A stretch of DNA of 25,840 nucleotides. Origin: a virus. Each line of letters begins with the position of its first letter. The first letter of the stretch is position 1. Shown here piece by piece: positions 380 to 16,335 of the stretch. The stretch spans positions 1-25,840 of IMG/VR virus record IMGVR_UViG_3300033993_000943. One strand, written 5' to 3'. The position numbers and the translations under genes were made by a program. The notes below the pieces were generated by a model. The model saw only the letters and a program-made list of their open reading frames with translations, ran no database searches and had not been told where the DNA came from.

Positions 380-380
380 A

Positions 381-2399: not shown

Positions 2400-5030
2400 C
2401 TACTCATTACTCAGCAGCCCCACACCATCCTCTGCCCAAGCCCAGTCGCGCCAGAACGCCACTCCAGCATCCTGGCCGCCGGCGCCAACACTGAGCGACG
2501 GCGTGACGGCAGCCACAACCACAACAGCGGTCGGGGCCAGCAAGTCAACGCCTCCCGCCTGCAGGCTGGGCACACTGACGCTGATCGCAATGCTGGCGGC
2601 CGGTGCATTGACGACAACTGATGTGCCCACCTCAGGCAACTGCGCCGCCACTGTGATCGCCGCTGCCGGTACAACCACCACAGTGGTGAGCGCCACATAG
2701 GGAGCGCTAGCGCTGATAGCAACGCTTGCTGCTGGGATCTGAATCGAGGAGGTGGCAAGCACGGTCATCTTTGACCGCACGCTCAAGGGCACGACAGACA
2801 GCTGGGTCAGGGCATAGCCGTATGCCGTCACCACCATCTTGGATTTGACCACGGCCTGCAGCGACTCCGTGACTGCCCACGGCGGCACCACTGCCGTCAC
2901 CGTCATCTGGCCATTGACCACCGCAGGTGCTGTCGGCAGCGTTGTGATCCCAGGTGCAACCGGGAACCAAAACGTTCCCGTTCCTGCCACAGCTCCCCAG
3001 AACAGCAGATCGCTGCTCACGACAATCCCATCGGCGCTGATCGCCCAGCTGGTGCCGTTGGTGCGGTACAACGCGCTCAGCCCATTGGCGCTGATGATCA
3101 CCGGACTGAACGGTGCGGCCGGCAGGATGTCAGGGCCGGTCTGGACGTTCATCCCGTAGCGGTTGCCCAGCAGCAGCCTGTTCTGCGTCTCTCCGTAAAG
3201 GCGTGCCGTGCTGCGGGCATTGCTGCGGAAGGCATAGTATTTGTTACCGCTTTTGATGAAGCGATCGTCGGAGACATACGGCGGCGTCATTCGGATCACT
3301 CGCTGCGCTGACAGCTCGCCATACGCAAATGCCAGCTCGCTGCTTGATTCGGTTCTGTAGTTGTCCAGCGGGTTGCCCGTGTCCGCTGCATCCTTGGCAT
3401 TGTTGCGCTCAACCGGCTCGGGACGCTTCTGCAGGCCCAGCTCGCGCCCGGTTGTGATGTTGACCTCAACGCCATCAGGCGTCAGATCGGCTGCGCGAAG
3501 CAGCATCTTTTCGGCAAGTCCCGTGGACTCCTTTTCGGTGCCGCTTTCGCTGACGAAATCAAACAGCTTGGCCTTGTCAAAGGCAGATGCCAGTGCCTGC
3601 TGCCCGCGCTGCGTGTAGCCATTGGCCTTGCTTAGCTCGCGGATTGTCTTGGTAACCTGTGCGCCTTCAAAATCAACGGACTGCTCCTGGCGCTCGACAG
3701 TCTTCTCGGCAACAAACAGATTGACAGGGTCAAGCTTCCAATCGAAATACACGCCCGCGTCATAGGCTTTGTCGTAAATCGACGTCGATGCCGCCAGCTT
3801 GATCAGGGGCTCCTCAACCACAACCGAACGGTTGTCAACGGTTTCGTAGTCCTTTGGCGGTTTGCCATCAGCCTGGCGCGGCTCGTATTGGTTGACTCTG
3901 TAGGTAAATGTTTCGGTGGTGCGGATGTAGTAAGCGGAGCTGCCAATGCCGGGAGCTGTGACGCCGCGCTTGACGTTGCTGTCTTCAGTCTCTTTGTTGG
4001 CCAGATGCACAATCAGCATCGGCGCCACATCCGCCAGGATTGTGTATTCCGTCGTGACCCGCACGGCCACGCGGTCCAGCTCGTCGTAGGTGGTTTCGGT
4101 GACCGAGCGCGGCGAATAGGCGTAGTCAAATGACTCAGCCGCGTCATACGGTTCAGGGCCGGGGCCAATCGTCCCCAGGCCAATGATGGTGCCGGCCAAT
4201 GGGTTGGGGATGCGAACCAGCGTCACAGCGCCGATCGTCTCGTCGCGTTCCCAGTTGCGGTTCTTGACGGCCTGCTCCTCGACAACCGGATCGTTGGGGT
4301 CCGCGTCAGCCGGTTTCTCCTCGCCCTCGTCGTACTTGAGCTTCAGCGTGCTGTAGCTGACGACCACCGCATCAGCAGGCAGCTGACCAACGCCAACCGG
4401 CGCCAGGTCAATGATGCTGCCAGCATCCACAACCGGACCGGTGCCGCCTTTTTGATCCAGGCTGAAGACCTGCAGCTGCTCGCTGGTGTCGAGGTAGCCG
4501 CAGTGGCTCATTGAAACCAGCAAGTCGCTGAGGATGCTGGCGTAGCCCGCCGAGAAATCAAACGACGGGATTGAAAAGGAAAGGTTGATCGGATTTGACG
4601 ATGCCGTAATGCCAAGCTCGCTCAAGCACTTCTGAGCAATTGAAGCGCCGCTGATCGGGATCGTGACAATGCGCTGCTCTTCCTCCGTGCGGCTGCTGTT
4701 GGCAGGGTCGTCTAGTGGGCGCCAGCTGACGCGCTCTGCTAGATCCTGCAGGTACGTCAACTTGCAGCCCAGTTCCACGGAGGTGGTGCGCCGGTACGGA
4801 TCGGCAAAGCTGCTGAGCACGCGCAGCTTGCGCGGCAATGTGAACTGCTGACCGGCCTTGGTGTAGGAAAAGGTGACGACAGTCCCCGGCGCTGGCGTGA
4901 TGGTGCCCCGGATTTCAGCTGATCCCTTGGTCTTGATCAGGCCCGTGCCTTGCACGTAGTCGTCGTTGATTGAGGCGCTGATCAGCGTGCCAAGGCTGCA
5001 AATGACTGTGGCGCGAATGTCAATGGCCAT
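2400..5030 (-). CDS. Large tail-tip/hub protein with C-terminal repeats (876 aa)
   Basis: At 876 residues this is the longest protein in the window. The N-terminal part (MAIDIRATVICSLGTLISAS, then a beta-rich region and KLTYLQDLAERVSWRPL) and a long mixed middle region fit the tail hub or tip protein found just downstream of the tape measure in siphophages. From about residue 770 to 860 the sequence becomes four imperfect repeats of 22-24 residues with the pattern [IV]-P-A-A-x-[IV]-[AT]-[IV]-x-[AV]-x-x-P, ending in a Trp-rich tail (FWRDWAWAEDG). Such repeats probably form small beta domains protruding from the tip. Its ATG overlaps the stop of the 254-aa gene (TGATG). The exact family is unassigned; tail tip is inferred from size and gene order. 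Confidence 0.78.
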   Translation of the reverse strand: MAIDIRATVICSLGTLISASINDDYVQGTGLIKTKGSAEIRGTITPAPGTVVTFSYTKAGQQFTLPRKLRVLSSFADPYRRTTSVELGCKLTYLQDLAERVSWRPLDDPANSSRTEEEQRIVTIPISGASIAQKCLSELGITASSNPINLSFSIPSFDFSAGYASILSDLLVSMSHCGYLDTSEQLQVFSLDQKGGTGPVVDAGSIIDLAPVGVGQLPADAVVVSYSTLKLKYDEGEEKPADADPNDPVVEEQAVKNRNWERDETIGAVTLVRIPNPLAGTIIGLGTIGPGPEPYDAAESFDYAYSPRSVTETTYDELDRVAVRVTTEYTILADVAPMLIVHLANKETEDSNVKRGVTAPGIGSSAYYIRTTETFTYRVNQYEPRQADGKPPKDYETVDNRSVVVEEPLIKLAASTSIYDKAYDAGVYFDWKLDPVNLFVAEKTVERQEQSVDFEGAQVTKTIRELSKANGYTQRGQQALASAFDKAKLFDFVSESGTEKESTGLAEKMLLRAADLTPDGVEVNITTGRELGLQKRPEPVERNNAKDAADTGNPLDNYRTESSSELAFAYGELSAQRVIRMTPPYVSDDRFIKSGNKYYAFRSNARSTARLYGETQNRLLLGNRYGMNVQTGPDILPAAPFSPVIISANGLSALYRTNGTSWAISADGIVVSSDLLFWGAVAGTGTFWFPVAPGITTLPTAPAVVNGQMTVTAVVPPWAVTESLQAVVKSKMVVTAYGYALTQLSVVPLSVRSKMTVLATSSIQIPAASVAISASAPYVALTTVVVVPAAAITVAAQLPEVGTSVVVNAPAASIAISVSVPSLQAGGVDLLAPTAVVVVAAVTPSLSVGAGGQDAGVAFWRDWAWAEDGVGLLSNE

Positions 5031-5794
5031 CAGATGATCTGCAGCGCTGTCAGGGAGACGCTGTAGCGGGTGCTCTTGGCGCCGCCGCTGATGATCACCT
5101 CAGCCGTTGCGCTGGGCGGCGAGATCGGGAACCAGCTGGTGCTGCTCGGTACAGCGGCAATCGTCTCGTCGTACCAAGACAACACGTCGTCGTAGCTGCC
5201 CGTGGTGAGATAGCCCTCGATCTGGCGCACCTTGTGCGCCGCCAGTGCGCCGGTCACGTAGCTCACGCCCGTTGCCGTCAGCGACACGCTGGGGCCGTCC
5301 TGGCGGGTCAGCATCGGCTTGGTCAAGGTGACAATCGGTGAGGTGCCTGTAGCCCGCGTCAGGGTGACCGTGCCAAGGCTAGGCACCGTTGCCTCAGAGT
5401 TCTGGCGGCTTTTCTCCTGCTCCCGCAGCAGCACGGCCAGCGCTTGCGCCGCATCCACCAACGTGGCATTGGCACTGATGTAGGGGCCAGCTTGCTCCCC
5501 ACTGGGGGGCTCAGTGAACCAGCAGGCCAAGCCGCTGATGCTCAGGCCGTTGCTGCTGGCGATACTGACGCTGACGGTGGTGCCAACGCTGGCGCTGCTG
5601 AGCGTGTCGGCATCGGTGAGGCGCGAGTTGCGCCAGGTGCCGTACTCGCTCACCAAGGCTTGCCACTGAGCGCTGGTCAGCAACCCATTGACGCGGAAGG
5701 TGCGAGCGGTCAGGCCGGTGCGGGCATCGCCTTCGTAGCCAAACGGCTGCGCCGTGAGAACGCTGGTGCTGAAGCTGCCGATGGTGATGGTCAT
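5030..5794 (-). CDS. Tail protein downstream of tape measure (distal-tail position, 254 aa)
   Basis: A 254-residue protein (MTITIGSFSTSVLTAQPFGY) with RTFRVNGLLTSAQWQALVSEY near residues 33-53, a pattern seen in phage tail proteins that cap the tube. It lies between the tape measure and the large hub protein, the position normally occupied by the distal tail protein in siphophages. It overlaps the tape-measure stop by 4 nt (ATGA) and the hub start by TGATG, so the three genes form a tightly coupled tail-tip unit. The rest of the chain is Thr/Ser/Val-rich and probably all-beta. Distal tail identity is positional inference; I see no diagnostic motif. Confidence 0.75.
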   Translation of the reverse strand: MTITIGSFSTSVLTAQPFGYEGDARTGLTARTFRVNGLLTSAQWQALVSEYGTWRNSRLTDADTLSSASVGTTVSVSIASSNGLSISGLACWFTEPPSGEQAGPYISANATLVDAAQALAVLLREQEKSRQNSEATVPSLGTVTLTRATGTSPIVTLTKPMLTRQDGPSVSLTATGVSYVTGALAAHKVRQIEGYLTTGSYDDVLSWYDETIAAVPSSTSWFPISPPSATAEVIISGGAKSTRYSVSLTALQII

Positions 5795-7941
5795 GACAGC
5801 GCTCCATTGACAGCATTGAGCACGTCGCCGCTGGCGCTGCCGCCGGGAACGTTGACGTTGACCGCCCAGGACTTGGCCGCAAGCTCGCGGGTTGCCGCAA
5901 GAAGCTCCCGGTTGACACCCACCAGGTCTGCGGTGTTCTTGTTCAGCGCTTCCTGCAGGTTGGCGACGTTGGTGTTGGCGGCCTTTTCGCGATCGACTTG
6001 CTGAATGAACTGCCGCACGGATTCGACAACATCACTTGTCGAACCGCTGAACTCTGGCGCCTGCGCACCGGTGATCCGAGTGAAGTCAGCCTGCGCATCA
6101 CGGAACAGCGGCAGGATGGAGCGCAACGTTTCCAGCCCGCGCCGATCGCGCTGCTCTGGATTCAGGAACTGATTCAACCCCTTGGGGTCATTGCGGATGC
6201 CGGCCAGCTCCAGCGTGGCCTGCTTGAGGTCATCGCGCAGCTGCTTGCCTGCAGTCTTCAGTGCTGTGGCGCCTTCGATCAGCTTGAGCCGCACCTCTTC
6301 TGATGCGACGACCTGCTGATCCACCAGCTTTTGCATGTCAGGGCCGGTGTCTTTGCCCTGCAGGCGCAGCGCATCAATCTGGGCACCGATCTGAATCACC
6401 TGATTTTTGGCCGCCTGGACGCCAGCCTCGATCTCCTGGCGCTGCTGGATCGTCTGACGCACGACGCCAGCTTCGGCAGCGGCCAGCTCATTGGCTGCGG
6501 CAATGCGCTGCTTGACGGTCTGCAGGGCCAGCTGGGCCTCAACCCGCTGCTGCTGTTGCTGGGCAAGAAGCGTCTTGTCTGGAGGGGGCGGCGGCGGCTT
6601 GGCTGGAAGACTTTGCTTTCCCGTTGCGCCTGAAGGCTTATTGATTTCAGCAAGATCCCGCCTGAGCAGATCTTGAAGAATTGCTTCTCGGATTCCAGTT
6701 GCAGAACCTTTGTAGGTTTTGCCTCCATACGTGACAGTTGCAGGCCCAAAGAATCCGGTTCCTTGCAACAGAGAGATCTGCCCGGCCACAATGTCTGTGG
6801 CCTGCCGCTCTCTTTTGAGCACTTTGTCGGGAGCAAGCGTTGATACCTGATTAAGTTTGACCAGAATGCTGTTTATGTCTTTGATAAATCCGGCAAATAG
6901 CGGCGATAAAACTGTGTCTAGCGTTGTTGCAAGGTTGGAGAAACCTGCGCCAATTTGCTTGAGGCCGCTACTAATTGTGCTGGCATTGGTCTGCGACGCA
7001 TCAGATGCAGCGCCAGCGGCTTTAGCTTGACGCCCCAGCAGTTCATTGTATTTGACAAGCTTGTCATTCAGGAGTGGCTGCACTGCAGTCTGCGCTTCGA
7101 CGCTACCTAGGAGGATTGCGATTTTATCTGCTGCGCCACCTGTTTTAGCCTGCACGTCGGCCAGCACGCCACCGAACCCCTTTGCCTGAAGTGCGCTAAG
7201 GCTGAAATCAAGGCCAAGCGAACTGGCCAAGTCCTTGGCTTGCTCTGATGGCTTGATAATGCTGCTGATGGCCTGGCGAAGACCGGTAAACGTCTGAGCT
7301 ACCGGGACACCTCGCAACGTTGCCGTTGCGATGGCAGCGTTTAGCTCTTGAATGCTGATGCCAGAAGCTGCCGCAATCGAAGCGATGGTGCCGATCTCTG
7401 CTGCGTATTGACGCACAGTGATCACGCCATCAGCTTGCGTCTGCACAAACTGGTCAACAAGCAGCCCGGCCTCTGCGGCGGTTTTGCCATAAGCATTCAG
7501 CACACCCGTAACCGCGCTGGCAACATCGGCCACCTCCGCAAAGCCACCCTTGGCACCCAATGCGGAAGCTCGAAGAATGGCCGTTGCATCCGCTGCTGTT
7601 GCAAAGCCAGAGCTGGCGACGTCGTAGGCGGCTTTGGTTAACTCAACAACACTGATGTTGTTGCCAAGCTCTACGGATAGCGCACGCAACTTTGGTACTA
7701 ACTGCGCTGAGTCAACGCCAAGAGTTCGCACAGCGGCAGAAGCCGCGTCAAGCTGAGTGACCTGTTGGCCAATGAACGCCGCAATGCCACCGACTGAGGT
7801 TGCAAGTCCAAGCCCGCCAATGGCATTGCGCAGAGCAGCCCCTGCTCCTTCTGCGGCTGATCTGGCGCGATTCAGTCCAGCATTGAACTGCCGATCGTCA
7901 ACGGTCAGCGTCAGTACAGCCTGCCCAAGCTGATCCGCCAC
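5791..7941 (-). CDS. Tail tape measure protein (716 aa)
   Basis: A 716-residue Ala- and Gln-rich, largely helical protein starting GTG (MADQLGQAVLTLTVDDRQF). Residues 1-330 match the TP901/PhageMin tail type: a KTAAEAGLLVDQFVQTQADG-like segment, ASGISIQELNAAIATATLRG and the hallmark VAQTFTGLRQAISSIIKPS. A Pro-rich hinge (about residues 440-455) is followed by a long coiled coil rich in QQQQ, KQRI and NELAAAEA. At roughly 1.5 angstrom per residue the tail would be about 100 nm long. The segment at about 6630-7080 is noticeably more AT-rich than either side. A CGGCAACCTTGG element is 18 nt before the start, and the end overlaps the next gene by 4 nt. Confidence 0.93.
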   Translation of the reverse strand: MADQLGQAVLTLTVDDRQFNAGLNRARSAAEGAGAALRNAIGGLGLATSVGGIAAFIGQQVTQLDAASAAVRTLGVDSAQLVPKLRALSVELGNNISVVELTKAAYDVASSGFATAADATAILRASALGAKGGFAEVADVASAVTGVLNAYGKTAAEAGLLVDQFVQTQADGVITVRQYAAEIGTIASIAAASGISIQELNAAIATATLRGVPVAQTFTGLRQAISSIIKPSEQAKDLASSLGLDFSLSALQAKGFGGVLADVQAKTGGAADKIAILLGSVEAQTAVQPLLNDKLVKYNELLGRQAKAAGAASDASQTNASTISSGLKQIGAGFSNLATTLDTVLSPLFAGFIKDINSILVKLNQVSTLAPDKVLKRERQATDIVAGQISLLQGTGFFGPATVTYGGKTYKGSATGIREAILQDLLRRDLAEINKPSGATGKQSLPAKPPPPPPDKTLLAQQQQQRVEAQLALQTVKQRIAAANELAAAEAGVVRQTIQQRQEIEAGVQAAKNQVIQIGAQIDALRLQGKDTGPDMQKLVDQQVVASEEVRLKLIEGATALKTAGKQLRDDLKQATLELAGIRNDPKGLNQFLNPEQRDRRGLETLRSILPLFRDAQADFTRITGAQAPEFSGSTSDVVESVRQFIQQVDREKAANTNVANLQEALNKNTADLVGVNRELLAATRELAAKSWAVNVNVPGGSASGDVLNAVNGALS

Positions 7942-7959
7942 GCCAACCCATCATCTTTC

Positions 7960-7971
7960 CCAAGGTTGCCG
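7960..7971 (-). repeat. Start-associated element, copy c-minus (CGGCAACCTTGG)
   Basis: Minus-strand CGGCAACCTTGG, 18 nt before the GTG of the tape measure. With the plus-strand copy three bases away it forms a head-to-head inverted pair (AGGTTGC / GCAACCT) between two divergent genes. Confidence 0.7.
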
Positions 7972-7974
7972 CCG

Positions 7975-7986
7975 CAGCAACCTAGG
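7975..7986 (+). repeat. Start-associated element, copy c-plus (CAGCAACCTAGG)
   Basis: Plus-strand CAGCAACCTAGG (11 of 12 to consensus), ending 2 nt before the ATG of the plus-strand gene at 7989. It is the only copy in plus orientation with a plus-strand gene behind it, so the element follows gene orientation. Confidence 0.7.
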
Positions 7987-7988
7987 CC

Positions 7989-8384
7989 ATGACAAGCGCT
8001 CTAGCCGGTCTCGCCAACGCCACAGCCACCTTCAATGTGGCCACCGTTGGCACCACCACCGACCCTGACACCGGCAACGTTCTGCCAGCCACAGAAGCGC
8101 TCACCGTCAGCCTGTACCTGCGCCAGGGCGGCAGCAGCAGCGCCAACCTGCCGGGCGTTGACGCTGACACCGAGGTGCTGGAGGGTTATGCGGTGAGCCC
8201 GCAGGCCCTGGATGCACGGATCAAGCCAGGCACCACCGGCACCCTCAACTTCGCCGGCCAAGGCAGCGCCAACTGCGAGGTGATCAGCAGCCGCTTTCCT
8301 TACGGCAGCACCGGCACAATCGGCAGCACGCTGCAACAGGTGCTCGGCGACAAGATCCGCATTGCCCGCTACCTGCAGAACTGA
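7989..8384 (+). CDS. Putative head-completion/stopper protein (131 aa), reversed orientation
   Basis: A 131-residue protein (MTSALAGLANATATFNVATV) with a DPDTGNVLP turn, beta strands (EALTVSLYLRQGG), a YAVSPQALDARIKPGTTGTL segment and FPYGSTGTIGSTLQQVLG near the end. Size, beta-barrel-like pattern and coupling to a gp10-like gene suggest the head completion (stopper) protein that seals the connector. It is on the plus strand while all other structural genes but its partner are on the minus strand. Its stop overlaps the next ATG (TGATG). The start-associated element ends 2 nt before its ATG. Function is inferred from neighbours and is moderately secure. Confidence 0.8.
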   Translation: MTSALAGLANATATFNVATVGTTTDPDTGNVLPATEALTVSLYLRQGGSSSANLPGVDADTEVLEGYAVSPQALDARIKPGTTGTLNFAGQGSANCEVISSRFPYGSTGTIGSTLQQVLGDKIRIARYLQN

Positions 8385-8830
8385 TGACCGTTCAGGTCAA
8401 GGCCACCTACAAGCTGACCGGCTGGAACAGCACCCAGCTCAAGCTGCGGATCCCGGTCATCCTCACCGGCTACGGCAAGGTGATGGATCAGCAGCTCAAA
8501 GAGGAAATCCAATCGCCACAGTTCAACTGGCCGCGTGAAACACGTCGCCGCAATGGCTCCCGCGTCAGCAGCCCGCGTGACATCGTGGACTTGGGCAAGT
8601 TCCTGCGCTCACAACGCCGCGATCGCCCCAGCGCCACACAGCTGCGTTTCACGTGGGATGTCAAAAGCGACAGCGGTTTTTCCTATGCGCCGCTGATCCT
8701 GACCGGCTACACCACCAGGCGCGGCACCATTGTTCCCGGTCGCAACTGGATCCAGCCAGCACTAGAAGCCAGGCCGCTTGATCGCTTTTTTGCGGCCGAA
8801 TGGCGCCGACTTGAAAGCAGCGGACTGTAG
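8384..8830 (+). CDS. HK97 gp10-like tail completion/minor tail protein (148 aa)
   Basis: A 148-residue basic protein. The N-terminal half has a long helix (VILTGYGKVMDQQLKEEIQ) and an Arg-rich stretch (RETRRRNGSRVSSPRDIV). The C-terminal half shows the hallmark order of the gp10/tail-completion family: a Phe-Ser-Tyr-Ala-Pro 'sits at the edge' segment, a Gly-Tyr-Thr turn, then PGRNWIQPALEARPLDRFF. In HK97-like phages this protein joins the finished tail to the head. It is the second gene of the reversed plus-strand pair and is coupled to the first by TGATG. It converges on the major tail gene, from which it is separated by a terminator facing leftwards. Confidence 0.82.
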   Translation: MTVQVKATYKLTGWNSTQLKLRIPVILTGYGKVMDQQLKEEIQSPQFNWPRETRRRNGSRVSSPRDIVDLGKFLRSQRRDRPSATQLRFTWDVKSDSGFSYAPLILTGYTTRRGTIVPGRNWIQPALEARPLDRFFAAEWRRLESSGL

Positions 8831-8835
8831 ACAAG

Positions 8836-8864
8836 AAAAAAGCGGTCGCCTCCACAACGACCGC
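8836..8864 (-). terminator. Rho-independent terminator after the major tail gene
   Basis: On the minus strand a 7-bp stem (GCGGTCG / CGACCGC) with a 9-nt loop is followed directly by six T. It lies 27 nt past the major tail protein stop and would stop leftward transcription before it runs antisense through the two plus-strand genes. The plus-strand reading has no T tract, so the signal is directional. Confidence 0.85.
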
Positions 8865-8881
8865 CCCCTCGACTCACCGAG

Positions 8882-8893
8882 TCTAAGTTGCTC
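8882..8893 (-). repeat. Degenerate start-associated element (GAGCAACTTAGA)
   Basis: Minus-strand GAGCAACTTAGA (8 of 12 to consensus), overlapping the stop of the major tail gene. Together with the plus-oriented copy at 7975 it forms inverted repeats (GCAACCTAG / CTAAGTTGC) around the reversed two-gene module. Confidence 0.45.
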
Positions 8894-9638
8894 AGCTCAC
8901 GGTTGCCACAGTCAGCACCGGCAGCGTATCGCCAGTGCCAAAGACGGTGGGGTCGTTGATCGTCAACACATCGCCCACCTTGTAGTTCTCGCCAGAGGCC
9001 ACGATGGTTGCGGTCTGGATCACACCAGAACCATTCACCGTGATCGTGACGGTGGCATTCTTGCCCGAGCCATTGCCTTGTGCCGGAGTGGTGCTGACAA
9101 GCGGAACGCCAGTCTGAGCGGACAGGCCAAGGCCGCCGTTAGTGACCGTCAGCGTGGCAATGCCGTCACCCTGCTGGTAGTTCTTGGGTGCGCCATAGCC
9201 CACCAGGTCAAAGGTCACAGCCGCCACCGACCCAGCTTCCAGGCTCTCAGACCAGTTGCCAACAAACGCTACCCCGGCATCGACTTGCGCATCGGTGTTG
9301 CCAGCACCCAGCAGCGGCAGCTCACGGTACCACTGAACCGCCACGTTGTTGGCCGAGGTCTGCGCTGCACGCTTGAGGATCAAGTAGCCCGTGGAGGTCG
9401 GGTCCAGGTTCAGCGCGGCGCTGATCGTATAACTGTTGCCGGTAACAATGCTGGACTTGAAGCCGAAGTCGGTGCTGTAGTCCAGCACATCCTGCGTGTC
9501 CGAGCTGACCGAGATCGAAGCATTGGTCAGGCTCAGCACCTCCGTCATGGTGCTGGAGCTTGTCGGAGCGCTGGAAGCGGTGGTGCCAGCCTTGACCCAG
9601 AACCTGAGATCAAGAGCGGCGAAATAGGTTCCGGCCAC
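8892..9638 (-). CDS. Major tail (tube) protein with C-terminal beta domain (248 aa)
   Basis: A 248-residue protein starting GTG (MAGTYFAALDLRFWVKAGTT). Residues 1-165 look like a tail-tube fold: ISVSSDTQDVLDYSTDFGF, YTISAALNLDPTSTGYLIL and a VTFDLVGYG strand. A C-terminal extension from about residue 175 contains the GSGKNATVTITVNGSGVIQT and GENYKVGDVLTI pattern, a repeat-type module often carried by phage structural proteins and probably displayed on the outside of the tube. It lies between connector genes and the tape measure, is preceded by a CGGCAAGTTAGG element 20 nt upstream, and is followed by a strong terminator, which suits a highly expressed gene. Confidence 0.85.
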   Translation of the reverse strand: MAGTYFAALDLRFWVKAGTTASSAPTSSSTMTEVLSLTNASISVSSDTQDVLDYSTDFGFKSSIVTGNSYTISAALNLDPTSTGYLILKRAAQTSANNVAVQWYRELPLLGAGNTDAQVDAGVAFVGNWSESLEAGSVAAVTFDLVGYGAPKNYQQGDGIATLTVTNGGLGLSAQTGVPLVSTTPAQGNGSGKNATVTITVNGSGVIQTATIVASGENYKVGDVLTINDPTVFGTGDTLPVLTVATVS

Positions 9639-9658
9639 GTGGGTGTTGTTGCGTGTGC

Positions 9659-9670
9659 CCTAACTTGCCG
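9659..9670 (-). repeat. Start-associated element, copy d (CGGCAAGTTAGG)
   Basis: Minus-strand CGGCAAGTTAGG, identical to copy a, 20 nt before the major tail start. Its TAG is the stop codon of the sigma-like gene, which therefore ends Ala-Ala-Ser. Confidence 0.7.
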
Positions 9671-10247
9671 CCAGCCGCTCTTCCTCTGCTTCCAGCACCT
9701 CCCACGGTGTCGGGATCGGCGAGACGTGCAGGTCGAAGCCTTTGACGTCATGCGCAATGCCGGCGGTGGCCAGCAGCGCATCCTTCAGGTCGGTCTTGCT
9801 GCAGCTCAACTCGCGGCACACGGCTGCAGACTCCCAGCCCAGTGCCATCAGCTTGCGGGCCTGGTTGCCGAGGAGCCGCGCCTTGTGCGTCGCCTTGATT
9901 GTCCAGTTGTGGCTGCGCAGGTAATGCAGCACCTCACCTTGCGCAAAGGCCCAGAAGATGGTGCTCAGCCTTCCGCGGTCCGGGTTCCAGGCCTTGCACG
10001 CCTTGATGAAGGCCATGTCCACGCAGGAAAAGATGTCCTCGCGTGCAATGCAGTGCCCGTACTTGCGTGCCAGCTTGCCACCGAAGCTCTTGATCAGGCC
10101 AATGTGCTCGGCATACATGCGCCCGATGCGGCGCTGCTCAGAGCGGGTCAGCGGGTTGGCCAAATACGGTTCAGCACGTCGCTTGAGCGGTGCAACTGCA
10201 GCAACCGCAAACAGATCAAGCTGGCATTCAGCGACGGGCATTGTCAC
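9660..10247 (-). CDS. Sigma-70 region-2-like transcription factor with N-terminal clamp-binding motif
   Basis: A 195-residue protein starting GTG. Residues 45-120 follow sigma-70 region 2 step by step: a helix ending in YGHCIAREDIFSCVDMAFI (like the DL-x-Q-x-G-x-x-G-L of region 2.2), an Ala-x-x-x-Trp-Asn-Pro-Asp-Arg-Gly-Arg segment, LSTIFWAFAQGEVLHYLRSH (like FSTYA...EI...LR) and WTIKATHKAR at region 2.4/3.0. Residues 125-160 can form a helix-turn-helix (WESAAVCRELSCSKTDL). The extreme N-terminus carries QLDLF at residues 10-14, which fits the beta-clamp consensus QL[SD]LF. It probably directs RNA polymerase to phage late promoters. It sits unexpectedly between connector and major tail genes and has only one start-associated element 2 nt upstream. 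Sigma-like identity is well supported; target promoters are not known. Confidence 0.75.
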   Translation of the reverse strand: MTMPVAECQLDLFAVAAVAPLKRRAEPYLANPLTRSEQRRIGRMYAEHIGLIKSFGGKLARKYGHCIAREDIFSCVDMAFIKACKAWNPDRGRLSTIFWAFAQGEVLHYLRSHNWTIKATHKARLLGNQARKLMALGWESAAVCRELSCSKTDLKDALLATAGIAHDVKGFDLHVSPIPTPWEVLEAEEERLAAS

Positions 10248-10249
10248 AC

Positions 10250-10261
10250 TCTAACTTCGCA
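10250..10261 (-). repeat. Start-associated element, copy e (TGCGAAGTTAGA)
   Basis: Minus-strand TGCGAAGTTAGA, a weaker match, 2 nt before the GTG of the sigma-like gene. It contains the stop codon of the connector gene. The weak match could mean lower activity here. Confidence 0.5.
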
Positions 10262-10808
10262 ACACCGGCACTGATCGGGCGCTGGAATTGGAGCCGCTCA
10301 GGCACAAGCAACCGAGCACTTGCTTCAAGTGCGGCACCACGTTCAGGGCGTTCTTGGCCTCTGCCTGGCCGGCCTGATTGAACTCCACGTCGATCACGTC
10401 AACCCGCGCTCGCTTCAGGTTGGCATTGGGGATGCCAGGGATCAGTTCGCTGCTACCAGCGCCGGTGCCGCTGAGCACGTTGCTATCACCCAGCAGGTAT
10501 TCCGCCAGGTCAAAGGCGGCTTGCTTGATCGGCTGCGGAATCTCGCTGCTGGTGAAGCTCCAGTCGCCGCATTCAGCATCACTGCGCGGCCAGAGCAGCG
10601 CCTGCGTTGTGGAAGCCTTGCTGCCCACGTATTGCAGCTCGTCGAGGTAGCGGGTCGCCATGATCAGCGCCCGACCCTTGTTGTCAGTGGTTGCCGTGGC
10701 CCAGTTCAAGGTGCCGAGGTACAGGTTGGCCAGATCATCAGCAGCGGCCACCGACAGGTAGCTGTTGGCATTGCTGGCCCCGGCAGTGGCGACAACGGTG
10801 ACGGGCAT
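10251..10808 (-). CDS. Head-tail connector ('DnaT-like' gp6-type, 185 aa)
   Basis: A 185-residue protein whose first 90 residues follow the head-tail adaptor pattern often labelled 'DnaT-like ssDNA-binding': an ANSYLSVAAADDLANLYLG segment (residues 13-31), a Trp, then NKGRALIMATRYLDELQYVG and ALLWPRSDAECG. This helical fold forms the ring below the portal. The C-terminal 30 residues (LKQVLGCLCLSGSNSSARS) look like a flexible tail. It lies just after the Mu-F-like gene, as usual for a connector. A CGGCAACTTAAG element is 17 nt upstream. I read the DnaT label as a fold name and not as a replication role. Confidence 0.82.
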   Translation of the reverse strand: MPVTVVATAGASNANSYLSVAAADDLANLYLGTLNWATATTDNKGRALIMATRYLDELQYVGSKASTTQALLWPRSDAECGDWSFTSSEIPQPIKQAAFDLAEYLLGDSNVLSGTGAGSSELIPGIPNANLKRARVDVIDVEFNQAGQAEAKNALNVVPHLKQVLGCLCLSGSNSSARSVPVLRS

Positions 10809-10825
10809 GGCGGCGCACTCTTGGC

Positions 10826-10837
10826 CTTAAGTTGCCG
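10826..10837 (-). repeat. Start-associated element, copy f (CGGCAACTTAAG)
   Basis: Minus-strand CGGCAACTTAAG, 17 nt before the connector ATG. It contains the TAA stop of the Mu-F-like gene, whose product ends Pro-Ala-Thr. Confidence 0.65.
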
Positions 10838-11852
10838 GTGGCGTCTTCGGTGCTGACCAGAGCTTGACGGCCTTGTCGAAGCCGATCTCGCCGTCCACCA
10901 GGCGCTGGCCGAGCTTCTTGCCGAAGATGGCCTGCGCAGTTGCGGGGTTGTCGCTGACCCACTGCCTAGCCGCAACCTTGAAGCTCAGCGCTTGCTCAGC
11001 GCCATCGCCGTCGGCGGGTCGCTTGGGCGGCACCTTGTTGCCACTCGGGTCGGTCATGTCTTCGCTGCGCCACTTCCACGGCAGGAGGTAGCAGCGGCAC
11101 TGCATGTGCGGGCTGACCTTGCGGTAGTCGGTCGGGAAGCGCTTGCCGTCCAGCTTCAGGCAGATCGGGCAGACCGCGCTATCCAGAACTGCCGTCCACA
11201 CCAGCCCTTCAGGCCCCATCCAGGCCGGGTCAGCCTCGAACTCATAGATCGCCTGCTGGGCCGCGTTGCCCACCTCCTGCACCCCGGTGCGGATGATGGC
11301 CTCGACGTTGTTCTCCGTGACGCGGACGACCGCATCCTCATAGGTGCGGAACACTTCGCCGCCCAGATCGGACAGCCCCAACCGGATGTAGCGCTCCACG
11401 CGATCGGCCACAGCGGCCGGCAGTGTTGCGGTCAGCTGTGTGCTGAGCGTCTTGCCGCCCACCACGGCATCGTTCACCAGGCGGTTGATCTGCGCCTGCG
11501 TGACCTGCACCCCACCATCGGAGGCCAGCTCACCGCCGGCCATGGTGACCATGCGGCGGGCAAAGTCCAGCTGCCGCTCGACAAATGGCGCCAAGGCGTT
11601 CTGCATGGCCGCCAGCTGCGGCACACCGAAGCTGTCCTGCACGCTGCGGCCAACAGCTGCAACGATGCTGGCAATGATGCGCTCCCGGCCTGGCCCTACA
11701 GCCAGAGCGCCGGAACTGCCCACCGCACGCTCCACAGCTGCCAGCGTGGTGCGCAGATCGCGCAACGCCTGCTTGATCAGGCGGTCTTCCAGCTTCTTGG
11801 CCGAAAGGGCATTGCGCAGGAAGGCTTCGACCTGTGCTGACAGATCAGCCAT
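10827..11852 (-). CDS. Mu F-like minor head protein (head morphogenesis, 341 aa)
   Basis: A 341-residue protein of the Mu gpF/SPP1 gp7 head-morphogenesis family. The first two thirds are helical (RNALSAKKLEDRLIKQALRD, then several amphipathic helices). The signature is at residues 219-257: a W-T-x-x-L-D segment, CPICLKLDGKRF, then a SPHMQCRCYLLPW motif, giving Cys228, Cys231, His249, Cys252 and Cys254 as a possible metal site. These proteins bind the portal and are packaged inside heads. The start chosen is the ATG at 11852 that overlaps the upstream TAA (TAATG). A longer GTG-initiated version to 11909 would overlap the neighbour by 58 nt with unlikely sequence. Confidence 0.88.
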   Translation of the reverse strand: MADLSAQVEAFLRNALSAKKLEDRLIKQALRDLRTTLAAVERAVGSSGALAVGPGRERIIASIVAAVGRSVQDSFGVPQLAAMQNALAPFVERQLDFARRMVTMAGGELASDGGVQVTQAQINRLVNDAVVGGKTLSTQLTATLPAAVADRVERYIRLGLSDLGGEVFRTYEDAVVRVTENNVEAIIRTGVQEVGNAAQQAIYEFEADPAWMGPEGLVWTAVLDSAVCPICLKLDGKRFPTDYRKVSPHMQCRCYLLPWKWRSEDMTDPSGNKVPPKRPADGDGAEQALSFKVAARQWVSDNPATAQAIFGKKLGQRLVDGEIGFDKAVKLWSAPKTPPAT

Positions 11853-12151
11853 TAGGCGGCAAACACCCTTGCCGGCTGCTCCGGCGTCACGACATAGGCG
11901 TCCCACCAATCAGGCAAGCCACCGATGTAGTTGACGTGCCAGCCGCTCAGCAGCACGGGTGGGGTAAGCACCTCGCCGGTGTCGGGGTCAAAGGTGCCTC
12001 CTGTGTAGATGGGACCGATGACATCGAGGGCGTGGGTGTGGCTGGCAGTGAGCACCACGGTGTCGCCGTCTTCATTGGTGGTGGTAAGGCCAGCAGCATC
12101 CAGCGCAGCCATGCCGGTGGATTCGTCGGGGAAGCGGAGGTAGTGCGTCAT
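11852..12151 (-). CDS. Small phage protein in head/appendage operon (99 aa)
   Basis: A 99-residue protein beginning MTHYLRFPDESTGMAALDAAG and containing ASHTHALDVIGPIYTGGTFD and LSGWHVNYIGGLPDWWDAYV. This pattern recurs in small phage proteins found beside tail-fibre genes, with predicted mixed alpha/beta fold and a Trp-rich end. It overlaps the lectin-like appendage gene by 4 nt (ATGA) and the Mu-F-like gene by TAATG, so all three are probably co-translated. It could be an appendage cofactor or assembly protein; no catalytic motif is visible and the function remains unknown. Confidence 0.82.
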   Translation of the reverse strand: MTHYLRFPDESTGMAALDAAGLTTTNEDGDTVVLTASHTHALDVIGPIYTGGTFDPDTGEVLTPPVLLSGWHVNYIGGLPDWWDAYVVTPEQPARVFAA

Positions 12152-13449
12152 TGCGTGATCGCCTGCAGCGTGGAGTTGGGGAGGCGCTGGGGGAAGAAGG
12201 TGAGGCGGCGGATGGTGCCTCCGACTTGTTGCGTACTTGCAAAGTTTTGACCAATAAACATGCGATCCGGCGTTGGAATTGTCGCAGTTGTGTCCTCGGT
12301 TCCGATCTGTCCGTTAGTCGCCAAGTTGATGCTATTCAGGCGGTAGGAAGCTGCTGTTGTGTAGCGAGCGCCTCCAGAAATGACTGGGCCGGCACCTACA
12401 TCCGCTTGTGTAACCCCTCCGTCAATTACGGCAACCGCAAGTGATCCAGCGCCAGTGCGTCGTGTAAAGATGCGTTCGTTGCCAAGTGCATCTGAAATGT
12501 CAGCAGCAAGCTGAGCGATCGTATTGTTTGGTGCAGATACAACATCCGCAAACACCGTCCCCTCATCCTGCCGATACCAAGAGCTGAAGTTCGCCCCCGT
12601 GATGCTGGCAACGTCCGCGCTGCGGGTGGCTGCGGCGGCAGTGGTGGGGATGTAGCTGGTGGGGAAGGCTCCGGCTTCTAGTTGGGCGCCCCAGAGGTAG
12701 ATGCCGCTAGCGCCGTCGCCAGTATAAGCAAACGCTAATGCACTTGTTGCAATAGAAATAAAATACGTTGACGTTACGGTGGTAGTTGATTGAATTGAGC
12801 ACCTATACCATCCATTAGGCAGTGCCTGAATTGTTCCGGGTCCACTGACCACTGCTCCGGTTGAAAGGTTAAAATAAGTTTCACCTTGAGCGCCATCTGT
12901 AGCATTGAAATCAATTAAACGAAATAATCGCGCTCCAGGGCCTTGCTTGGCAAAAACAGAGAATCTTTTGGCTCCAGTAGTTGTAGAAGTTTGATTAACG
13001 TTGTGCTGACTGTTTGAGGTATTTTCGGTGATTAAATCTGCCGTCGTTTGCCCGTCTGGTGCTGTTAATGCGTTTAGCGTTGAACCACTACCAAATGCTA
13101 GTAGTCCATTTGCTGTCCAAGTTGTCCCAAAATTCTCCGACTGCACTAACAAATTCGTCCGCTGCTCCTCCACCAGCAGGCCCAGGCTTTCGCCGGTCGT
13201 GGGGTTGTGGTCAAACCTCGGCACATCCACAGCCGCCGTCTGCAGCGTTCCCGCGCTGTCGATGTAGGTCGCGCTGCTGGCGCGGGTGAAGGTAATCAGG
13301 CTCTGCCCCGTTCTGGAGTCAACCAGCGATTTGCTGTCCGCAAAGCGCAGATCAAGGCTTGGCACCGCTTTTGCGCTGCGCCAAAGGGCATTGCGCACCC
13401 ACTGGCCTGGCATCAACGCAGCGCGGCGCGATGGCAGTATCAACGTCAC
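12148..13449 (-). CDS. Lectin-like virion appendage protein (433 aa) within the head cluster
   Basis: A 433-residue protein starting GTG. After about 35 basic residues it has the conserved phage module LITFTRASSATYIDSAGTLQ, DVPRFDHNPTTGESLGLLVE and EEQRTNLLVQSENF (residues 50-110), a carbohydrate-binding-like beta domain (NGWYRCSIQSTTTVTST, GIYLWGAQLEAGAFPTSYIP), and a second jelly-roll-like domain at 280-425 (MFIGQNF, IRRLTFFP). Such proteins are receptor-contacting fibres or head decorations. It sits unusually between capsid genes and the Mu-F-like gene. The stretch 12720-13160 is clearly richer in A and T than the rest of the window. It overlaps both neighbours by 4 nt. Confidence 0.82.
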   Translation of the reverse strand: MTLILPSRRAALMPGQWVRNALWRSAKAVPSLDLRFADSKSLVDSRTGQSLITFTRASSATYIDSAGTLQTAAVDVPRFDHNPTTGESLGLLVEEQRTNLLVQSENFGTTWTANGLLAFGSGSTLNALTAPDGQTTADLITENTSNSQHNVNQTSTTTGAKRFSVFAKQGPGARLFRLIDFNATDGAQGETYFNLSTGAVVSGPGTIQALPNGWYRCSIQSTTTVTSTYFISIATSALAFAYTGDGASGIYLWGAQLEAGAFPTSYIPTTAAAATRSADVASITGANFSSWYRQDEGTVFADVVSAPNNTIAQLAADISDALGNERIFTRRTGAGSLAVAVIDGGVTQADVGAGPVISGGARYTTAASYRLNSINLATNGQIGTEDTTATIPTPDRMFIGQNFASTQQVGGTIRRLTFFPQRLPNSTLQAITQ

Positions 13450-13994
13450 AGGCCAGCCTCCAGTGTCACTACCCGCAGGCTGTGAGCAGTGCCGCTGGCT
13501 GGGGTGTACGCGCCACGGGTTTCAAGTTCGGCATAAAGGATGTTGCTGCCGGCTGCCAGTTTGATTGCCGTGCCGCAGTAGTCAGATTGCGTGAACAACG
13601 TGCTGCCCAGGTCTTGCGGCGCTGAAAGATCGACAAACCCCGCATAGGCACCCACTTCGCCGCTCACCAGATCAAACGCGGCGTTGTCCAGAATCGCGGT
13701 GGGAATGGCGGTGTAGAAGTGCAGCCGGAATCCGGCCATGCCGCTGGGCACCGTGGTGCTTGCAATCATCAGGCGCACCGACTGCACTAGCACGTAGCCA
13801 CCGCTGGGGCCGATGCTGGGCAGGGTGATGATGGCGCTGCCCGCATTGGCGGGCGTGACGCCATCAGCCACACCAATCACATCACCGGCGGTGTAGGCCG
13901 TGGTATTGCTGGGGCGCGTGATGGTGACCGCAGCGCGATAAGCGACACCGCTTGCTTCTACTGCAGCCTCGCCGCCGCCCAGAAAGGTGGCCAT
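13446..13994 (-). CDS. Phage structural protein near capsid genes (182 aa)
   Basis: A 182-residue protein (MATFLGGGEAAVEASGVAYR) predicted to be mostly beta: AAVTITRPSNTTAYTAGDVI, PSGGYVLVQSVRLMIASTTV, MAGFRLHFYTAIPTAILDNA, then a VDLSAPQDLGSTLF segment and a C-terminal HSLRVVTLEAGL. This type of protein is common next to capsid and fibre genes in phages of environmental bacteria, and is probably a head fibre base or decoration protein. It starts in a TGATG overlap with the 51-aa gene and ends in a 4-nt GTGA overlap with the lectin-like gene. No named family assigned. Confidence 0.8.
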   Translation of the reverse strand: MATFLGGGEAAVEASGVAYRAAVTITRPSNTTAYTAGDVIGVADGVTPANAGSAIITLPSIGPSGGYVLVQSVRLMIASTTVPSGMAGFRLHFYTAIPTAILDNAAFDLVSGEVGAYAGFVDLSAPQDLGSTLFTQSDYCGTAIKLAAGSNILYAELETRGAYTPASGTAHSLRVVTLEAGL

Positions 13995-14149
13995 CAGTCT
14001 TCTGTCACCTGGATTTCCTTAGGTTGCCGACCACGGCGGCGAGGCCTGGCCTCTTCCTTTGGCGAGGTCTGCTCAACAGCAAAAGAGGCCGCCTCCGCAG
14101 AGGCAGCCTCCAGCTGTTCACGCAGTCGCCTGAACGCGAACAATCCCAC
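13994..14149 (-). CDS. Small basic-tailed protein (51 aa, GTG start)
   Basis: A 51-residue frame filling the gap between the 126-aa and 182-aa genes. It starts GTG at 14149 (Val-Gly-Leu-Phe-Ala-Phe-Arg-Arg-Leu-Arg-Glu-Gln) with a purine-rich GGAAG sequence about 8 nt ahead, and ends in a TGATG overlap with the next gene. The N-terminal half can form an Ala/Glu helix. Residues 33-43 are highly basic (ARPRRRGRQPK), like the tails of small head-associated or DNA-contacting phage proteins. A CGGCAACCTAAG element is embedded in its 3' part. Coupled position and codon-like composition support a real gene; function unknown. Confidence 0.72.
   Translation of the reverse strand: MGLFAFRRLREQLEAASAEAASFAVEQTSPKEEARPRRRGRQPKEIQVTED
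14018..14029 (-). repeat. Start-associated element, copy g (CGGCAACCTAAG)
   Basis: Minus-strand CGGCAACCTAAG, 23 nt before the ATG of the 182-aa protein. Unlike most copies it lies inside a coding frame (Arg-Gln-Pro-Lys) with no stop role, so it is not merely a side-effect of a stop codon context. Confidence 0.6.
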
Positions 14150-14152
14150 TGA

Positions 14153-14533
14153 TCACTTCCGGTAGAAGATGACTGTGGAGCTGGTCGCCACACGGCCAAT
14201 AAAGGTGGCCGAGCTGGCTGCTGCCACGGTGACAGAGCCGGACACGCTCACGCTTGCACCACCAGCAAAGGTGATGGCGTGAGTCGCACCTGCGAGGTTG
14301 ACGATCGTCACCTCAAAGCACTGGCCGACCATGCCACTGTCGCCCAGCTCGCTGATGATCTCAGCGGCGGTGGCGGTGGTGTAGGTGCGGCCCGTGGATG
14401 GGGTCACCGTGATCAGGCTCTCAACGCTCTGGGCAGCGGTGAGGGTGGTGTCAGCGTTGCCGCCGGCCAGCAGCACGCGGCCCTGGGTAGCGCGGCCGAA
14501 GTTGGCCTGCTCCAGTTCAAAAATGGATGCCAT
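14153..14533 (-). CDS. Putative head decoration protein (126 aa)
   Basis: A 126-residue protein (MASIFELEQANFGRATQGRV) with a strongly beta-patterned body (TTLTAAQSVESLITVTPSTG, THAITFAGGASVSVSGSVTV) and a final SSTVIFYRK strand. It is the first gene after the major capsid protein, where capsid-stabilising decoration proteins usually sit, and its size fits. The pattern near residues 95-125 is like the 'noise term' strands common in small phage beta proteins. It is 11 nt after the capsid gene and 3 nt ahead of the 51-aa gene. Decoration is inferred from position and size only. Confidence 0.75.
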   Translation of the reverse strand: MASIFELEQANFGRATQGRVLLAGGNADTTLTAAQSVESLITVTPSTGRTYTTATAAEIISELGDSGMVGQCFEVTIVNLAGATHAITFAGGASVSVSGSVTVAAASSATFIGRVATSSTVIFYRK

Positions 14534-14544
14534 CGTTAGTTACC

Positions 14545-15570
14545 TCAGAAGTTGGGGTTGGAAACGATGCTGACGACACCAATGTTCTTGGTTTCGTAGA
14601 TCTGCGTCCAGTTGCTGGCCGCTTCCAGCGTGGCGCGGGAAGGGTTCACGCCACCAGAGGTGTAGGACACACCGAGGGGGTGATAGAGATTGTGCCAATG
14701 CACCGACATGGCATCGCTCAGAGCGAGGATGTCACGGTCGGTCTCGGTCACAAGGCCCGACTGGGTGCCGGAGGCCATGGCGCCAGGGGTGAACAGGTAC
14801 GAGGCATAGTTGGTGCCATCGTTGTTCACGTCGTCAGAGACGATCACGCGCATCCCCATGTAGAAGGGAACGGTGAGGTCGCTGGCATAGGCTGCGGCCA
14901 TGCTGCCGCTAAACACCGGAGCAATGCCGGTGGTGGCTTCAGTGCCGCCGCCACGTGCCTCATCGTTGGTCACGTAGTCGATCGCCTTGCGCTCCACGAG
15001 GTCGTAGAAGCACTTGCTGTGCATCGCAATGACGCTCAGCTTCTCGCCTTGATCGCCAAGAGCAGCGCGGGCTTCAGCCACCTTGCCGGGGTTGAGGGTG
15101 ACTGCCGTTGCGTTGGAATCAATGGCCAACGCACGCAGCGCACCGGTGGTGTTGCTGGTCAGCGGGCCAAAGACACCGCGCAGGATGGAGAACACATCCT
15201 TCTGCTGCTGGTGGCTGATGTAGTCGGCGACCTTGCGGCCAATGGCCTGCATGGGGTCGTCGCCAGCGGCCAGCGCAGCCAGAGTGCGCACTTCCCAAGC
15301 GCGACCACGGTGCAGGACCGGGCAGATCTGCTTTTCAGCACCGATCTTGCCGGGGATCAAGCTGGTGGTGTCGCTCAGAACTTCAGCGTCGCCACTGAGG
15401 TTGGAGGACCAGGAAGGGACGTTCACATAGTCGCCGCCTTCTGTGGCATTGAGAATGTCCAGAGGTTGGATCACGCCGCTGTTGATGAAGGCCGACCGAG
15501 TGGTGACAGCCTCGTCAACGTAGGCAGTGAACACCTCGGGGACAATGATGTCGCTCCGAAGGGTTGCCAT
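14545..15570 (-). CDS. Major capsid protein (341 aa)
   Basis: A 341-residue protein (MATLRSDIIVPEVFTAYVDE) with the layout of an HK97-fold coat protein of the gp13-like/environmental type: an N-arm with VPEVF and a FINSGVIQPLD segment, E-loop region (GGDYVNVPSWSSNLSGDAEV), spine-helix-like region (DDPMQAIGRKVADYISHQQQ, residues 104-123), then an A-domain and a MSVHWHNLYHPLGVSYTSGG end. It follows a coiled-coil scaffold gene and precedes a decoration-like gene, the standard head order. The 75-nt gap upstream carries no strong promoter that I can see. Its abundance in virions can be checked directly. Confidence 0.9.
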   Translation of the reverse strand: MATLRSDIIVPEVFTAYVDEAVTTRSAFINSGVIQPLDILNATEGGDYVNVPSWSSNLSGDAEVLSDTTSLIPGKIGAEKQICPVLHRGRAWEVRTLAALAAGDDPMQAIGRKVADYISHQQQKDVFSILRGVFGPLTSNTTGALRALAIDSNATAVTLNPGKVAEARAALGDQGEKLSVIAMHSKCFYDLVERKAIDYVTNDEARGGGTEATTGIAPVFSGSMAAAYASDLTVPFYMGMRVIVSDDVNNDGTNYASYLFTPGAMASGTQSGLVTETDRDILALSDAMSVHWHNLYHPLGVSYTSGGVNPSRATLEAASNWTQIYETKNIGVVSIVSNPNF

Positions 15571-15645
15571 GATGATGGTTTAAGAGGATTGGGACGCGGC
15601 CACAGGCCTTCACGGGTCAGCACAGCCTTCCCTTACGGCTATAGA

Positions 15646-16335
15646 TTACCGCTTGGCTTCTGATTTGAGCTTGGCGTATAGCTCGGGGTTTGTTTTGAAC
15701 AGGCGGCCCTGTTCGGTGAGGTTGTAATGCTCAGCGCTGAACGGGTTCTTGGTGCCTGATGGAACAACCGCAGCGCTGCGACTTCCGGCCGGTGCGCCGG
15801 TGCCCTGTGGCTTGGGTGCTTTGAGCCGATACTGCGGCAGGCTGGTCTTGGCCCAGTCGTTGATTGGTGTGCGCTGATAGCCATCCACCACAACAACGGT
15901 GCCATCGGGCTCGCGTTCGATCTGCTCCGGCTTAAGGCGCAGGCGGATCACCTCGTCAGGGTCGTGAACAATGTCCGCCAGGGCAGCGACCGCAGGGCCG
16001 ATCAACTTCAGCTCGCGGTTCTCAGCTTCCAGGGCATCAAGGCGCTGCTGCAGCGTGCCTTCGCGCTCGCGGTACTGCTGCTCCAGCTTCTGGCGGGCTT
16101 CGCTGTAGTTGCCCTGCTGTTCCAGCTCAGCCTGCTCGGCGCGTTGCTTGAACTCCAGCAGCGCCCGCACGTCGGTGCCATCAGGCAACTCTGCTGCCAT
16201 CTGCTCGTATTTGCGCAGCTTGCGCTTTTCTTCCAGCAGTTCCTTGTTCTTGCTGCGCAGCAGGTTCAGCTCAGCTTCTAGGGCCGAGGCATCAGGTGCA
16301 GACTGCTCCACAGGAGCGGTGTCGTTGTCGGGCAT
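15646..16335 (-). CDS. Capsid scaffolding protein (229 aa)
   Basis: A highly charged, helical protein. From about residue 20 to 115 it is an almost continuous coiled coil (LEAELNLLRSKNKELLEEKR, then REREGTLQQRLDALEAENRE), followed by a short globular part (PDGTVVVVDGYQRTPINDWA) and a Lys/Arg-rich C-terminus (LYAKLKSEAKR), which in scaffolds often binds the coat protein. It is directly upstream of the major capsid gene. I chose the ATG at 16335 (MPDNDTAPVEQ). A TTG at 16353 would add six residues. A perfect CGGCAACCTAGG element is 26 nt upstream of the ATG, and no Shine-Dalgarno sequence stands out. Confidence 0.88.
   Translation of the reverse strand: MPDNDTAPVEQSAPDASALEAELNLLRSKNKELLEEKRKLRKYEQMAAELPDGTDVRALLEFKQRAEQAELEQQGNYSEARQKLEQQYREREGTLQQRLDALEAENRELKLIGPAVAALADIVHDPDEVIRLRLKPEQIEREPDGTVVVVDGYQRTPINDWAKTSLPQYRLKAPKPQGTGAPAGSRSAAVVPSGTKNPFSAEHYNLTEQGRLFKTNPELYAKLKSEAKR

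Follow-up and report, generated by a model that had tools for sequence, protein, structure and literature searches.

A short sigma-like protein with a putative sliding-clamp motif and a candidate late promoter in a lineage of cyanophage-like siphophages

How the late genes of a phage are switched on is a question raised directly by the locus described here, where a sigma-like gene is found within the virion operon. The DNA analysed, which we call the window, is a virus record of 25,840 bases. Its virion genes lie on the minus strand, in an order that includes the terminase, portal, scaffold, major head, head morphogenesis, Ad1 connector, sigma-like, major tail and tape measure genes. A preliminary description of this DNA proposed that the sigma-like protein joins a sigma-70 region 2 to a motif for binding the bacterial sliding clamp, and that it ties late transcription to replication in the manner of phage T4. 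That interpretation is supported overall by our analysis: the sigma-like fold, the conserved clamp motif and the late-gene element are each borne out computationally. The protein is probably a stripped-down phage late sigma factor that contains regions 2 and 3, lacks region 4, is tethered to the sliding clamp and couples the late genes to replication.

The open reading frame of the sigma-like gene is present at 9660–10247 on the minus strand and, by gene order, is located between the connector and major tail genes, both as previously described. The start codon is most likely the ATG at 10241, two codons downstream of the GTG at 10247 used in the preliminary description, because 31 of 32 relatives have an ATG five or six codons ahead of the clamp motif (the remaining relative, L048, has GTG). 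The start differs in more distant clades. With the ATG start, the coding sequence spans 9660–10241 on the minus strand and the predicted protein contains 193 residues. Start codons in the set of 32 relatives were chosen by anchoring on the motif, and the alignments use these starts as well; gene calls and start codons throughout come from a simple ORF caller. The virion block is broken by two plus-strand genes (7989–8830), and exonuclease and replication-initiation genes are located upstream of the block, at 22.7–24.9 kb.

Based on terminase and capsid, the closest cultured phages are the Synechococcus phages KBS-S-2A and S-H1 and Prochlorococcus phages such as MED4-184 (50–60% identity), and the host is therefore probably a picocyanobacterium. 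The phage had also been called temperate, a description for which we find no support: in a search for the tyrosine-integrase family, three of 25 records score above the cut-off and a fourth is weak, and the window record gives no match. Bacterial and archaeal genomes, scanned for the sigma-like protein, gave 48 pattern matches, none of which is a relative, and no prophage copy. Among cultured phages, just weak PSS2 sigma matches (E 0.02) were obtained.

The resemblance to sigma-70 region 2, originally noticed by pattern only, is confirmed by PHROG, by Pfam matches throughout the family, and by an AlphaFold2 sigma2 bundle together with Foldseek and VIA-align comparisons. The window protein matches the PHROG 351 sigma family with an E-value of 1e-8, Pfam sigma-70 region 2 with 7e-4 (under the gathering score) and the NCBIfam FliA/WhiG model with 1e-6 (under the cut-off). 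Pfam Sigma70_r2 is matched at E ≤ 0.1 by 30 of the 32 alignment members, including the window protein, with a best value of 3e-6. A sequence profile search of the PDB gave five matches, of which four are sigma factors, led by RpoH (E 3e-5), and one, 8vd6, is not.

The preliminary description made its sigma assignment depend on structure prediction giving a sigma-2 helical fold, and this is the fold that AlphaFold2 predicts. The model (mean pLDDT 72, pTM 0.55) contains a sigma2 bundle (residues 33–110) followed by a second helical domain, where three helices (119–133, 138–145 and 149–159) occupy the place of region 3. Confidence is low at residues 1–27 (pLDDT < 50) and 162–180. Repeating the AlphaFold prediction with a more diverse set of relatives produced a similar fold with equal confidence, including a low-confidence helix at residues 7–11. 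All of the best 50 rows of a Foldseek search against the PDB are sigma chains, but a single row reaches E ≤ 0.001 and the rmsd is large, which is probably due to a different arrangement of the two domains. The best VIA-align row is the sigma2 domain of SigE (Z 10.4, rmsd 1.9 over 77 residues). Helical bundles can reach a Z of this size, and the sigma call therefore rests on sequence and structure jointly. The VIA-align superposition on sigma28 (1rp3) spans residues 31–169 and covers regions 2 and 3, with an rmsd of 9.1. Most of the named proteins among the BFVD matches listed are phage sigma factors. The predicted sigma2 fold and the region 2 sequence together argue for membership of the sigma-70 family.

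The region 2 homology domain identified by profile matches, AlphaFold2 and structure comparison extends from about residue 31 to 112 (9906–10151, minus strand). It is followed by a predicted region 3-like helix-turn-helix at about residues 119–164 (9750–9887, minus strand), whose helices are collinear with those of FliA/sigma28 and RpoH past region 2. The alignment also reveals a conserved C-terminal block, GFDLH...TPWEVL (residues 168–183; 9693–9740, minus strand), where G168, F169, L171, H172, T178, P179 and L183 are invariant in 32 of 32 sequences. This block is retained even in the most distant relative and may represent a point of contact with the polymerase. Past the region 3-like domain, the AlphaFold2 model contains only about 30 residues and one short helix. 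This is too few for region 4, and no region 4 with −35 recognition is seen in the model.

The putative clamp-binding motif is located in the N-terminal segment that is predicted to be disordered (pLDDT < 50). The preliminary description assigned QLDLF to residues 10–14; the motif stands, and its numbering is corrected to 9–13 counted from the GTG or 7–11 counted from the ATG (10209–10223, minus strand). Relatives were collected from two overlapping scans of viral contigs, one yielding 54 loci and the other represented by the best 80 of 98. Two of the 54 loci are partial and were left out of the frame comparison. The pattern Q[LM]x[LMF][LF] occurs near the N-terminus in all 33 distinct N-termini (51 proteins), within a leader that is otherwise divergent. 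Shuffled N-termini carry it with a mean probability of 0.0024, which excludes the earlier worry that QLxLF occurs here by chance. The first position is Q in all 33, the second is L (32) or M (1), the third is free (S, D, L, C, Q, A, E or N), the fourth is L (22), F (10) or M (1), and the fifth is F (28) or L (5). The motif is constant between clades while its flanks and the length of the linker vary, and it is encoded by 28 distinct 15-mers with synonymous changes at conserved positions. It is visible in whole reading frames as well, where no motif-anchored choice of start is involved. In L187, the most distant relative (47% identical), QLQLL comes right behind an assumed TTG start.

An N-terminal motif of this type is rare among the other proteins of these phages. 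Seven of 637 distinct proteins from 13 genomes contain it in the first 20 residues, and six of the seven are the sigma-like protein; the G020 copy, which starts like the G014 copy, was removed from this set as a duplicate. The other 631 proteins, which include two sigma-like copies called from a further upstream start (G008 and G035), contribute one, QLNLF in G027. That protein, encoded at 2639–3322 of the G027 contig, is a different one that starts MSIVSQLNLF, giving this relative a second clamp-like motif at an N-terminus. In the available text of one review, the beta-clamp pentapeptide consensus is QL(S/D)LF and is placed at C-termini (PMC9690074). The sigma-like protein matches a pentapeptide of the same type in a predicted disordered tail, but at the N-terminus. 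The family therefore has a conserved clamp-type pentapeptide in what is predicted to be an accessible tail, with a putative role in clamp contact.

The repeated element that the preliminary description reported at late genes is indeed present and has the form GGMAASYTARG. We derived this pattern by visual inspection of the intergenic gaps of the window, fixed it, and only then applied it to other genomes; a generic repeat search, tried as a source of the element, gave noise. On the minus strand of the window, exact matches are positioned upstream of the portal gene (17857–17867), the scaffold gene (16362–16372), the ORF at 13446–13994 (14018–14028), the Ad1 connector gene and hence the sigma-like gene behind it (10826–10836), the major tail gene (9659–9669, overlapping the last sigma-like codons), the ORF at 2002–2370 (2387–2397) and the ORF at 381–812 (830–840). 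Minus-strand copies with one mismatch are located upstream of the tape measure gene (7960–7970) and where the RusA gene ends, ahead of a small gene that precedes the terminase genes (20162–20172). A divergent copy, also with one mismatch, is found on the plus strand at 7976–7986, 2 nt upstream of the ATG of the gene at 7989–8384. This copy and the one at 7960–7970 form an outward-facing pair between divergent genes (window 7942–7988), and relatives have the same outward-facing pairs in front of divergent genes of the same type.

The overlap between the element and the last codons of the sigma-like gene is frequent among relatives. Where the overlap is weak or lost, a copy of the element sits a few bases downstream in several relatives (e.g. 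G008, G018 and L187), which suggests that the DNA rather than the peptide is conserved. The L015 group, L120 and L128 have another sequence after the sigma-like stop codon, and no element was seen there.

In nine relatives, 91 of 128 element matches (at most one mismatch) lie −6 to 45 nt upstream of a same-strand start, compared with 2.5 start-associated matches on average, and at most 8, for 40 column-permuted patterns. A further 17 of the 128 are upstream of an opposite-strand start, some of them in divergent pairs. G016 was scanned for the element and left out of this count. In KBS-S-2A, S-H1 and MED4-184, where the sigma-like gene is absent, none of 21 element matches is positioned at a same-strand start. 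The start-associated copies are concentrated at late genes: in the five long relatives among the nine, the element precedes 57 of 183 late genes versus 2 of 135 others. For this comparison the contigs were read as circles, with the late region defined as 27 kb from 3 kb before the portal gene, since some contigs are circularly permuted and a linear reading misplaced elements as early; terminal repeats are seen in G008 and G020 alone.

The element also follows the presence of the sigma-like gene. Within the same capsid lineage, the density of start-associated elements is higher in each of six contigs with the gene (lowest, 1.96 per 10 kb) than in any of 35 contigs whose sequenced stretch does not contain it (highest, 1.43 per 10 kb), and exact copies are found in five of the six versus one of the 35. 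These contigs derive from at least 80 capsid loci, of which 46 were picked by eye for length and 41 satisfied a 5.5 kb rule. Five of the six gene-bearing contigs were already known from the sigma scans, and L187 is new. The GC content is 59–63% in contigs with the gene and 51–58% in those without, apart from one at 60%; this difference and shared ancestry mean that the p values (4e-5 and 5e-5) overstate independence. The link between gene and element is correlational, is drawn from related genomes, and is confounded by GC content and ancestry.

Several features of the element resemble those of a promoter. Removal of near-identical flanks left 87 sites, 10 of them from the window and some still orthologous. 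The distance from the element to the start codon is 2–3 nt at 13 of these sites and at least 10 nt (peak 17) at the remaining 74, and is never 4–9 nt; 12 of the 13 sites in the close class have an ATG start. Such a gap would be expected if transcription starts 3–4 nt past the element, giving either a leaderless mRNA or a real leader. When the A and T of AASYT are read as −11 and −7, +1 becomes the fourth base past the 11-mer. The predicted +1 is A at 57% of sites, compared with a background of 21%, but neighbouring positions are also A-rich (38–49%), and because the enrichment covers four bases (38–57%) the predicted start point is not sharp and provides support rather than proof. No position upstream of the element exceeds 0.4 bits and those at −35 are below 0.1 bits, as expected for a factor that has no region 4. 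The spacing and the absent −35 sequence fit a candidate promoter of the −10-only kind. The claimed near-absence of host-type promoters also holds: four were found in positions 1–20,000 versus 3.7 expected, and scans for sigma-70 promoters and terminators gave no excess over shuffles.

The clamp that would be bound by the N-terminal motif is likely to be host DnaN, since no phage clamp was found beside the sigma-like gene. The DnaN C-terminal domain has no match in 37 IMG/VR records, many of them fragments, that include the window, and among three cultured phages it is present in S-H1 alone. The DnaN N-terminal domain and the gp45 family gave no match in 10 records including G008 and G020, the gp45 search having been run without a T4-like control. 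In S-H1, where the sigma-like gene is absent, the phage's own DNA polymerase III beta clamp (L058 18187–19236) adjoins the terminase.

In the mechanism that we propose, the sigma-like body would dock on host RNA polymerase, as its sigma2 fold suggests. Lacking region 4, the protein would read GG-MAASYT-ARG, the element observed upstream of many virion genes, as a −10-only late promoter. Transcripts would begin 3–4 nt past the element and would be either leaderless mRNAs starting at the AUG or mRNAs with 5′ leaders of mostly 13–23 nt. The N-terminal QLxLF peptide, on its flexible linker, would replace the missing −35 contact and hold the holoenzyme on a clamp, most likely host DnaN, loaded at replication forks. 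Replication would thereby turn on the late genes, in the manner of T4 but through a single chain and the host clamp. We regard this T4-like logic of late transcription as well supported by inference.

Each part of this mechanism can be read in another way. The protein might be a late sigma factor for the element whose N-terminal motif binds RNA polymerase, another phage protein or some other partner that is not the clamp, with no tie to replication. Short hydrophobic motifs can serve several partners, and the C-terminal placement of clamp motifs in the available text of PMC9690074 would agree with such a role; however, the invariant Q followed by L or M, a free position, L, F or M, and finally F or L matches the published QL(S/D)LF, and the motif is positioned in a tail predicted to be disordered, which together make a non-clamp partner rather unlikely. 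The identity of the factor that reads the element can also be questioned. Many longer relatives encode a second, full-length sigma (five of eight by tblastn: G008, G014, G018, G020 and G026; further examples by Pfam, e.g. G016, G024, G032 and G035), so the sigma-like protein need not be the sole phage sigma, and the element could be the promoter of that sigma or of a host sigma, with the short protein acting as a cofactor or inhibitor. We consider this unlikely, because KBS-S-2A has a full-length sigma but no start-associated element, because G027 and G030 (46.9 and 45.0 kb; completeness unproven) carry the element and the short protein with no match to a full-length sigma, and because a −35 element is absent.

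The association with gene starts and the orientation with the gene would also be consistent with an element that acts in translation, with the sigma-like protein unrelated to it. The start-associated sequences of cluster K mycobacteriophages are likewise short oriented repeats at many gene starts; as described in the available part of PMC3203893, they contain AGGAG, typically lie 3–7 bp from the start and belong to the non-structural half of the genome. The element described here, in contrast, is found at late genes, separated from the called start codon by 2–3 nt or by 10 nt or more and never by 4–9 nt, contains no Shine-Dalgarno core and tracks the sigma-like gene, and we judge a translational role to be improbable. 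More doubtful again is the idea that the protein is not an initiation factor but a virion protein, or a sigma mimic that titrates or inhibits host polymerase: its gene does sit in the virion operon, but the region 3-like domain is kept and the protein tracks a promoter-like element in phage late genes. The preferred reading remains that of a late sigma factor tethered to the clamp.

The parallel with T4 gp55 is close in architecture and differs in detail. As described in the available part of PMC2988020, gp55 is a small sigma2-based late sigma factor that lacks region 4, is counted as a member of the sigma-70 family, and has a conserved clamp epitope on a divergent linker at the other, C-terminal, end. 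According to the available part of PMC7892883, activation in T4 cannot do without the gp33 clamp motif but is only impaired when that of gp55 is lost. Resemblances to gp55 as presented in these sources are the small sigma2-based structure without region 4 and the putative clamp epitope on a divergent linker. The −10-only promoters found at many T4 late genes have a possible counterpart in the late-gene element, whose layout is of that type. Here, however, the epitope is N-terminal and fits the bacterial DnaN consensus, and a C-terminal gp45-type epitope such as that of gp55 is not found. The sigma-like protein also adds a region 3-like domain, the promoter-like sequence is GGMAASYTARG, the genome is of the siphophage type, and neither a phage clamp nor a gp33-like partner is seen: the 637 distinct proteins of 13 genomes include no conserved second protein with a clamp motif. 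An hhalign comparison of the sigma-like protein with gp55 gave an E-value of 0.34, in a test that lacks power because it also missed the true KBS-S-2A sigma (E 0.21, wrong register); the absence of gp55 from the best 50 VIA-align rows excludes nothing. By analogy, the sigma-like protein may work like gp55, and we do not file it as a gp55 member.

Regions 2 and 3 occur in the same order in the FliA/WhiG/SigF group, from which the sigma-like protein differs by the lack of region 4, by scores far under the family cut-offs and by the N-terminal clamp motif. The RpoD-like sigma of KBS-S-2A is also phage-encoded and comes from the same terminase/capsid lineage (PMC3751600), but it is full length, is located outside the virion block, and belongs to a genome without start-associated GGMAASYTARG. 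In a literature search on phage sigma–clamp or DnaN links and on late promoters of cyanophage siphoviruses, covering listed records and selected passages of open-licence papers, we found no comparable system; the papers returned deal mainly with T4 or are reviews and genome reports.

On balance, we lean towards the view that a cyanophage-like siphophage lineage, outside the T4 family, has its own form of clamp-activated late transcription. A single protein would combine promoter reading by sigma2–sigma3 with a tether to host DnaN, its N-terminal peptide replacing both the −35 contact and gp33, and would act at about ten short −10-only promoters distributed over the virion genes, some of which give leaderless mRNAs. 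If so, clamp-based coupling of late genes to replication would be a recurrent solution, found again in a system whose small sigma is built differently and whose clamp comes from the host. It would also be a minimal, single-protein version in which tethering could be tested by altering five residues. For the uncultured cyanophage relatives, the analysis provides a concrete candidate late promoter with predicted start sites.

Two minor observations concern other features of these genomes. The full-length sigma of KBS-S-2A (L056 7779–8708) ends in QLPLIP, a possible C-terminal clamp motif, and among eight relatives of this sigma (L164–L171) the terminal sequence is QLTLVQ or QLTLIQ in three and QGTLPLLQVQ in the other five; the KBS-S-2A sigma and some of its relatives thus terminate in clamp-like QLPLI, QLTLV or QLTLI. 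A clamp-like motif at the C-terminus of an RpoD-like phage sigma would possibly be placed as in T4 gp55. In the window itself, a 46-nt direct repeat with 83% identity (20896–20941 and 21254–21299) flanks the ORF at 20960–21250.
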